In this document: piece by piece, positions 4,811-58,575 of the stretch | Numbering within the stretch: position 1 is the stretch's first letter | How the letters are laid out: each line of letters opens with the position of its first letter | From: an uncultured Acidimicrobiales bacterium | GTDB taxonomy: Bacteria > Actinomycetota > Acidimicrobiia > Acidimicrobiales > Bin134 | Assembly: GCA_951813325.1 (NCBI GenBank) | Contig: OX638350.1 | Span: 2,709,954 to 2,773,953, forward strand | Direction of reading: 5' to 3' | DNA: 64,000 nt | Notes under the pieces: generated by a model | Told to the model about the DNA's origin: nothing | Databases searched by the model: none | The model's input: the letters and a program-made list of their open reading frames with translations, nothing else | Translations under genes and position numbers: made by a program

Positions 4811-4834
4811 CATGACTGCTATCATACAGTCATG
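4811..4834. promoter_or_regulatory. Leaderless promoter inside an operator palindrome (vapBC-type)
   Basis: CATGACTG and its exact complement CAGTCATG flank 8 bases; the right arm ends in the antitoxin start codon (ATG 4832). The spacer contains TATCAT (4820-4825), a good -10 hexamer, exactly 6 bases before the ATG. That spacing puts the transcript start at or next to the start codon, as in leaderless actinobacterial genes. No Shine-Dalgarno is present. No convincing -35 was found. The layout fits autorepression by the ribbon-helix-helix antitoxin. Confidence 0.6.
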
Positions 4835-5128
4835 CAGCAAGTAACCTGGCGAGCAGACAACGATCTCGTAACCCGGGTCAAGCTGACCGCAAAACACCTG
4901 GATCTCTCCATGAACGAGTATCTGACTCAAATCGTAAGGGCAGCCACCGACCCTTCTCTGTCGTCGAGCTCAGTGGAAGAAGTCCGGGCAAGACTGCGCC
5001 TAGCCGGACTCCTTGTTGAGACGCCTCCTCCCACCGTCCCCCCGCCAGATCAGGCTGCCGTGGCTGCGGCCCGTAAGCGGGCTGGTCAAGGAACCCCCCT
5101 CTCTGAACTGGTCCGCGCCAACCGGTGA
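4832..5128 (+). CDS. vapB: Antitoxin of a VapBC-type pair (ribbon-helix-helix)
   Basis: A 98-residue protein. The first 35 residues (QQVTWRADNDLVTRVKLTAK then LSMNEYLTQIVRAA) have the strand-helix-helix pattern of a ribbon-helix-helix DNA-binding domain; the C-terminal half is Pro/Ala-rich and would be the toxin-binding tail. The ATG at 4832 is chosen over an earlier ATG-like start at 4730 because family similarity begins here and because the promoter palindrome ends on it. The stop overlaps the toxin start (GTGA at 5125-5128), so translation is coupled. It neutralises the PIN toxin and probably represses the operon. Confidence 0.75.
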   Translation: MQQVTWRADNDLVTRVKLTAKHLDLSMNEYLTQIVRAATDPSLSSSSVEEVRARLRLAGLLVETPPPTVPPPDQAAVAAARKRAGQGTPLSELVRANR

Positions 5129-5556
5129 CCTCCTTCCTTGATACCTCGGCTCTGGTCAAGCGGTACGCCGACGAATCAGACAGCGACCTCGTCAGAGACC
5201 TAGCCACCACTGTCGTTGTCAGCGAGCTGGCCAAAGTAGAATTACCAGCCGCGCTTTGGCGCAAACACCGGATCGGTGAATTTTCTGCTCAAGAAGCCCG
5301 CGTCCTGTGCCAGCAATTCTCCTCTGACCTTGTGTATTGGTTCTCCCACCACGACACACAGCTCATCGAGGCAAGTACCGACATCCTGCACACAGCGGCA
5401 GACTTGGTAGCCCGTCACCCGCTGAGCGCCTATCACGCCGTGCAGCTTGCCTCCGCGCTTGAAGTACTCCGCATCGTCGGTGACTGCTCTTTCGGATGCT
5501 TCGACCGTCAACTCTCAACCGCCGCCGCCATCGAGGGCCTTCCACTGCTGTGGTGA
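5125..5556 (+). CDS. vapC: PIN-domain toxin (VapC family) with an altered acidic site
   Basis: A 143-residue PIN-domain protein; VapC toxins are Mg-dependent RNases that cleave tRNA or rRNA. Seen: the first catalytic Asp in FLDTSALVK (D6), the second acidic residue in AKVEL (E39), and the last Asp in FGCFDRQL (D127). Where most relatives have an Asp in the motif AYDA-x-LA-S-A, this one has His104 (codon CAC at 5434-5436; one base from GAC). That could weaken or abolish metal binding. Start GTG 5125 overlaps the antitoxin stop. The downstream lipoprotein start overlaps this gene's end, so the three may be one transcript. Confidence 0.82.
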   Translation: MTSFLDTSALVKRYADESDSDLVRDLATTVVVSELAKVELPAALWRKHRIGEFSAQEARVLCQQFSSDLVYWFSHHDTQLIEASTDILHTAADLVARHPLSAYHAVQLASALEVLRIVGDCSFGCFDRQLSTAAAIEGLPLLW

Positions 5557-57966: not shown

Positions 57967-58284
57967 TCAGAGGTCGAGAACAGCTCGCAGGCCGTCGTCG
58001 ATGGCGTCAATGAGCGCACCGGGCAGTTGCCCCACCGCTTCCACCAGCCACGAGCGATTGACAAGCTCCAATCCGAGCGGCACCGCAACAGAGTCCGTCG
58101 GCAAACCTGTCATAGCGGTGTTGAGCAGCACGTTGCCCGCGAGTCCCGCTCTGTCGAGATTCGACGTCAGGGGTACGACATGGGTCTGCCATACCTCGGC
58201 ACCTAGGACATCCTCCGAAGACACCACGACGCATGGCCGACGCTTGTCGAGATCAGCCCAGTACACCGCACCTCGCGCTACCAC
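57967..58284 (-). CDS. mazF: MazF/PemK-family RNase toxin
   Basis: A 105-residue toxin with the family start RGAVYWADLDKRRPCVVVS and the VVPLTSN strand; the loop between the two strands is shorter than in E. coli MazF. Such toxins are sequence-specific mRNA/tRNA endonucleases. GTG 58284 is chosen because it lies inside the antitoxin's end (overlap of 7 bases) and gives the normal N-terminus; the longer open frame upstream is an antitoxin shadow. Confidence 0.82.
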   Translation of the reverse strand: MVARGAVYWADLDKRRPCVVVSSEDVLGAEVWQTHVVPLTSNLDRAGLAGNVLLNTAMTGLPTDSVAVPLGLELVNRSWLVEAVGQLPGALIDAIDDGLRAVLDL

Positions 58285-58526
58285 GGAGCAGATCGCTCCA
58301 TGCGCTGACCGGCTTTGAGCGCGTCTGCCCTGGTCAGCTTTCGCTCGGTGGTGGCTAACGCGGCATCTGCCTCGATCTGTTGAGCGAAGGACATGTTCGA
58401 CTGAGCCGCATGGCGGCGGAGTTGTTCGGTCACCCACCTCGAGAACGGGATGTCCAGGCTGTCGATGACCGGCACAACGTCATCGGGGATGCTGATCGTC
58501 TTGTTCGGCACGTACGTATTATACAT
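58278..58526 (-). CDS. Ribbon-helix-helix antitoxin partner of MazF
   Basis: An 82-residue (or 77) protein with NKTISIPDDVVPVIDSL and SRWVTEQLRRHAAQ, a ribbon-helix-helix DNA-binding domain, and a charged C-terminal tail. Two starts are possible: ATG 58526, or GTG 58511, which stands exactly 6 bases after a perfect TATAAT. The second would make the mRNA leaderless and leave the whole operator upstream of the gene. Confidence 0.78.
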   Translation of the reverse strand: MYNTYVPNKTISIPDDVVPVIDSLDIPFSRWVTEQLRRHAAQSNMSFAQQIEADAALATTERKLTRADALKAGQRMERSAPW

Positions 58527-58532
58527 ACGTAC
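58512..58532. promoter_or_regulatory. Operator palindrome with embedded TATAAT (RHH-mazF)
   Basis: GTACGTAT and its exact complement ATACGTAC flank 5 bases. On the minus strand the -10 hexamer TATAAT (58523-58518) lies inside, with GTG 58511 six bases after it. The layout equals that of the vapBC-type locus at 4.8 kb: palindrome, -10 box in the palindrome, start codon six bases on, no Shine-Dalgarno. Confidence 0.65.
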
Positions 58533-58575
58533 ACCTCTCGATGGGCTCGATCGCCAACGCGCGGCGGCTGCCCGA

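Follow-up and report, generated by a model that had tools for sequence, protein, structure and literature searches.

Where does translation of the small antitoxin gene on the minus strand of this DNA begin, and do its promoter, operator, and start codon share one short site? The sequence-only reading of the 64,000-nt stretch analyzed here (the window) had described a TATAAT followed after exactly 6 bases by a GTG codon, with an ATG located upstream of the -10 box, and the letters of the minus strand agree with this description. The -10 box (58518 to 58523, of the form TAnnnT) is followed by the six bases ACGTAC (58517 to 58512) and by GTG (58511 to 58509); the ATG (58526 to 58524) abuts the upstream edge of TATAAT and is in frame with the GTG (MYNTY-VPNK...). 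The arms of a palindrome, GTACGTAT-5-ATACGTAC (58512 to 58532, minus strand), match the letters exactly, such that the minus strand from 58532 to 58509 reads GTACGTAT GTATA ATACGTAC GTG. When every ATG and GTG codon in the 64 kb with at least 40 open codons was scanned for TATAAT with at most one mismatch (TA....T) located 5 to 8 nt upstream, near-perfect matches were found in only two places, at 58511 and at a VapB-like gene starting at 4832. On the basis of the comparisons described below, we consider it highly probable (approximately 0.88) that the site is the leaderless, self-repressed promoter-operator of a chromosomal type II toxin-antitoxin (TA) operon of the MazEF/PemIK kind.

The antitoxin gene (58278 to 58511, minus strand) encodes 77 residues when read from GTG 58511, as assigned from the open reading frame and the conservation of the N terminus in relatives, and its predicted product possesses a short N-terminal strand-like segment (PNKTISIPDD) followed by helices. 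The toxin gene (57967 to 58284, minus strand) encodes 105 residues of a predicted PemK/MazF-like mRNA interferase (PF02452, 44.3 bits with a cut-off of 23.1), and its nearest solved structures are those of Mycobacterium tuberculosis MazF6 (E = 1.3e-14). The GTG start of the toxin at 58284 overlaps the antitoxin stop by 7 nt, as it also does in 63 of the 68 pairs of orthologs, and the toxin is adjacent to the antitoxin in 68 of 77 antitoxin loci. Comparison with relatives thus establishes, at the level of sequence, a toxin of the PemK/MazF family and a small antitoxin gene that overlaps it from directly upstream, which is the arrangement of MazEF/PemIK systems. The antitoxin family gave no match in Pfam, NCBIfam, PADLOC, or PDB sequences. 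When the antitoxin was compared with ribbon-helix-helix (RHH) antitoxins by using hhalign, a weak profile match was obtained (probability 37%, P = 3.6e-4 for one comparison). Because of that match, the TISVPDDV pattern, and the strand-helix-helix spacing, the DNA-binding fold is likely to be RHH. The structure model was of modest confidence (pLDDT 76.6), and searches with Foldseek and VIA-align revealed no meaningful fold match to it in the PDB, an absence that proves nothing. The family is well conserved (PNKTIS[VI]PDDV...PFSRWV...RMERSAPW) and, in the collection of genomes searched, occurs almost exclusively in Acidimicrobiia; the named relatives are nearly all from acidimicrobial MAGs. A match was present in 20 of the 197 genomes searched from the host genus and order (window genome not counted), and no relative was found in plasmid records. 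The pair sits at varied places in relatives and is therefore probably mobile. In three of the relatives (L012, L016, and L017), the bases just upstream of the antitoxin promoter resemble the 3' end of a tRNA gene.

The promoter region was compared among 53 distinct orthologous sequences, which are related by descent such that the counts obtained are not independent events. In every one of the 53 orthologs, exactly 6 bases separate TAnnnT from the start, with the hexamer being TATAAT in 28, and 50 of the 53 have no Shine-Dalgarno (SD)-like sequence from -16 to -4 before this start, as is characteristic of leaderless promoters. Aligned with GTG 58511, 33 orthologs carry ATG, 19 carry GTG, and one carries GTA, the last being a copy with a short match and without an adjacent toxin. 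Nucleotide conservation spans from about -20 to -1 and ends abruptly upstream, and the antitoxin N terminus is conserved in relatives from the GTG 58511 codon onward with PNKTIS invariant. A TTG resembling a -35 element is spaced 16 nt from the -10 box in ten orthologs and 17 nt in nine, whereas each of the remaining spacings between 10 and 25 nt has zero to three cases; the window copy of the promoter has no TTG at 16 to 18 nt. The spacing of the -10 box, the TTG at 16 to 17 nt, and the limits of conservation argue for a real promoter with its +1 on the start codon, and the predicted +1 in the window is the first base of the GTG at 58511 (minus strand), as judged from the -10 spacing and the TTG at 16 to 17 nt in 19 of 53 orthologs.

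The same alignment bears on the upstream ATG. Aligned with ATG 58526 is ACG in 30 orthologs and ATG in 20, such that 33 of the 53 have a codon other than ATG, and 10 of the 53 carry an in-frame TAA or TAG inside the -10 box, in 3 cases immediately following an ATG aligned with 58526. The exact -10 spacing, the position of the start codon, the loss of ATG 58526, and the in-frame stops lead us to conclude from sequence comparison that GTG 58511 is very probably the antitoxin start, on a leaderless mRNA; this upholds the original assignment, given an ATG or GTG at that position in 52 of 53 orthologs. An SD-like GAGGTG (58532 to 58537, minus strand), probably there by chance, lies 5 nt before ATG 58526 and weakly favors that codon in this genome alone. 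Since this hexamer precedes the ATG, and since no terminator was detected after the carboxyltransferase gene, which runs on the same strand and ends 65 nt ahead of GTG 58511, a minor 82-residue read-through product is possible. We regard it as very unlikely that both starts are used, with a repressible leaderless mRNA giving the 77-residue protein and a read-through mRNA bearing the SD giving a low, constant amount of the 82-residue form. This genome does have both the hexamer and the ATG downstream of a co-directional gene, but orthologs do not keep the two together: an SD-like match of at least 5 nt precedes the 58526 position in 2 of the 20 orthologs with ATG and in 2 of the 33 orthologs without it. 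Less probable again is the reading in which the antitoxin starts at ATG 58526 (82 residues) on a leadered mRNA, made from an upstream promoter or by read-through from the carboxyltransferase gene, with the palindrome serving as operator only and TATAAT being incidental. An in-frame ATG behind an SD-like hexamer, downstream of a same-strand gene with no detected terminator, would suit such a reading, but no TAnnnT other than TATAAT 58523 to 58518 occurs within 200 nt upstream, the conserved protein begins at PNKTIS, the SD is not kept, and the ATG is lost or followed by stops in the numbers of orthologs given above. On the comparison of orthologs, ATG 58526 was rejected as the start.

The comparison of orthologs also places the palindrome more exactly. 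The conserved form is a 17-bp palindromic predicted operator (58512 to 58528, minus strand) with the consensus GTACGTATAATACGTAC, which is centered on -9 and ends at -1, immediately upstream of the start codon. At this center the 53 orthologs have a mean of 7.0 of 8 complementary pairs, compared to 4.26 at the center of -11 used in the sequence-only reading. The window copy is GTATGTATAATACGTAC with GTATGTAT as its left half. The conserved register is two bases off the earlier 8-5-8 register, whose arms are perfect in this genome owing to a second copy of GTAC four bases outward from the first. With at most 3 mismatches allowed, the palindrome GTACGTAT-5-ATACGTAC occurred only at this site in the window (in two overlapping registers), compared with 0.01 per window in shuffled sequences, and it gave p of about 0.01 against local shuffles. 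A test for compensatory change linking position -18 to the start codon's first base showed no clear pairing. As judged from the aligned orthologs, the ATG (58524 to 58526, minus strand) is a C-to-T variant within the left half-site and a by-product of the operator. The palindrome overlaps the -10 box and is conserved in orthologs, as expected of an operator; that it acts instead in RNA, as the hairpin of a terminator or attenuator, or serves in recombination is the least credible of the alternatives, as the perfect 8-bp inverted repeat would suit such a role but would lie upstream of the mRNA if transcription starts at 58511, no terminator-like site was found at the locus, conservation tracks the promoter (invariant TAnnnT with a -35 at the right distance), and unrelated TA loci carry different palindromes in the same place.

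The comparative results point to a leaderless, self-repressed operon that may work as follows. RNA polymerase would recognize TATAAT (58523 to 58518) and start at the first base of GTG 58511, yielding a leaderless mRNA that is presumably translated from its 5' end to give the 77-residue antitoxin, and the toxin, a predicted RNase, would be translated from the same mRNA by way of the 7-nt overlap. The antitoxin, alone or with the toxin, most likely binds the 17-bp palindrome over the -10 box and up to +1, which would block RNA polymerase, and degradation of the antitoxin would lift the repression. We infer the transcription start, the leaderless translation, the binding by the antitoxin, and the RNase activity of the toxin; the -10 box, its 6-nt spacing, the position of the start codon, and the palindrome were each established by comparing orthologous sequences.

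The antitoxin gene at 58511 had been described as the second TA locus of the window with the merged design, and the VapBC-like pair at 4832 to 5556 (plus strand; antitoxin 4832 to 5128, PIN-like toxin 5125 to 5556, PIN E = 0.0014, below the curated cut-off) does share it. There the palindrome CATGACTG-8-CAGTCATG (4811 to 4834, plus strand; p of about 0.01 against shuffles) encompasses TATCAT (4820 to 4825), which is followed after 6 nt by ATG 4832, such that the palindrome spans both the -10 box and the ATG start codon. TAnnnT-N6-ATG is kept in 10 of 11 copies of this locus.

The proposal that these two cases reflect a general rule in the organism was examined in 37 TA loci of its own genome (29 PIN and 8 PemK matches) and in PemK loci of relatives. 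TAnnnT was located 6 to 7 nt before a possible antitoxin start in 26 of the 37 PIN/PemK loci and, in relatives, in 22 of 28 PemK loci. Since all candidate antitoxin starts of a locus were considered, part of the 26 and of the 22 may have arisen by chance, a level gauged by the other spacings at about 3 of 37 and 2.5 of 28. For other adjacent pairs of spacings in the own-genome set, the mean was 3.0 and the maximum 8 of 37 loci. All 8 PemK loci of the genome have TAnnnT at 5 to 8 nt. The control genes were taken from 264 kb of the same genome, including ten 20-kb stretches, with rough gene calls; the divergently transcribed genes with a leaderless signal numbered 22 of 85, and the co-directional ones 11 of 97. 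Compared with the divergent controls, the TA loci are enriched (odds ratio 6.8, Fisher p = 6e-6, with related TA loci not being independent). The rule thus holds for most of the TA loci, and the signal is also common elsewhere, in about a quarter of ordinary promoter-bearing genes. The genome contains only six TetR_N matches, too few to serve as a control set. For 29 TA promoters of this kind (28 found, plus VapB 4832), inverted repeats over the -10 box had a mean best score of 5.83 versus 4.28 in shuffled sequences (standard deviation of the mean 0.18). An inverted repeat overlapping the -10 box at p of about 0.03 or less was found in 11 of the 29 promoters, the other 18 had no clear palindrome by the shuffle test, and the sequence of the palindrome varies between loci. 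Because 18 of 29 promoters are without a clear palindrome, the leaderless spacing is better supported as a rule than does the palindrome. As read from their promoter sequences, most PIN/PemK TA loci of this genome are built on the same plan, with a separate palindrome for each locus in which one can be detected. The TA load of the genome is high, with 29 PIN, 8 PemK, and 18 PhdYefM matches in 3.59 Mb (loci L079-L133).

The merged design is already known from M. tuberculosis, given published results on its TA start sites and on the MazE6 operator (PMC3898074 and PMC9477884), and its spread in Acidimicrobiales is what is added here. In M. tuberculosis, 32 of the 37 TA pairs that have a primary start were found to be leaderless, with TANNNT -10 elements and use of both ATG and GTG as start codons (Cortes et al. 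2013, PMC3898074). The present loci resemble these in having TAnnnT shortly before ATG or GTG and in the enrichment among TA genes (32 of 37 there, 26 of 37 here by sequence), whereas the earlier study mapped 5' ends (PMC3898074) and the present starts are predicted from the sequence of an uncultured acidimicrobial genome, in which an operator palindrome is present in addition. The RHH antitoxin MazE6 binds an operator of 18 bp that holds the -10 element just upstream of the start (Kumari and Sarma, PMC9477884), and mycobacterial TA operators are usually centered on the -10 element (PMC9477884). M. tuberculosis mazEF6 is thus similar in its antitoxin dimer on an 18-bp operator with a TANNNT -10 element and in MazF6 being the nearest solved relative of the window toxin. 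It differs in that the mycobacterial operator CCGGTTATACTATCTGTA is not described as palindromic (PMC9477884), whereas the window operator is a near-perfect palindrome, and in that the two antitoxins have no significant sequence match, the only likeness seen being a weak profile match to MazE6-like RHH antitoxins. Escherichia coli mazEF is likewise an autoregulated operon with a palindromic operator overlapping its promoter (PMC4803016), but its MazE is of the AbrB/SpoVT type, its palindrome is an alternating one, it has two promoters, and it is not described as leaderless (PMC4803016). A literature search linking Acidimicrobi* with leaderless found nothing on topic.

The core idea is already published, and the gain here lies in breadth and comparative support. 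The results suggest that a distant actinobacterial class shares the leaderless arrangement of TA operons measured in M. tuberculosis. We put at about even odds the broader proposal that most type II TA operons of Acidimicrobiales, with unrelated antitoxin families, fuse the -10 box, a palindromic operator, and a leaderless start within about 20 bp, and that the antitoxin here represents an undescribed family. If so, then together with the mycobacterial data, leaderless operator-fused TA promoters would be ancient and general among actinobacteria rather than a feature of mycobacteria. For this uncultured group, the comparison offers a rule for locating TA starts and operators (TAnnnT 6 to 7 nt before the antitoxin start, with a palindrome across it) and would correct the start that an annotation tool might pick, ATG 58526, upstream of the -10 box. 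It also bears on why stress-response operons should avoid SD-dependent translation. In four loci of relatives (L144, L146, L147, and L153) that encode MazE6-like antitoxins (MKTAVSIPDD...), the sites with a TTATACT -10 element resemble the M. tuberculosis mazEF6 operator.
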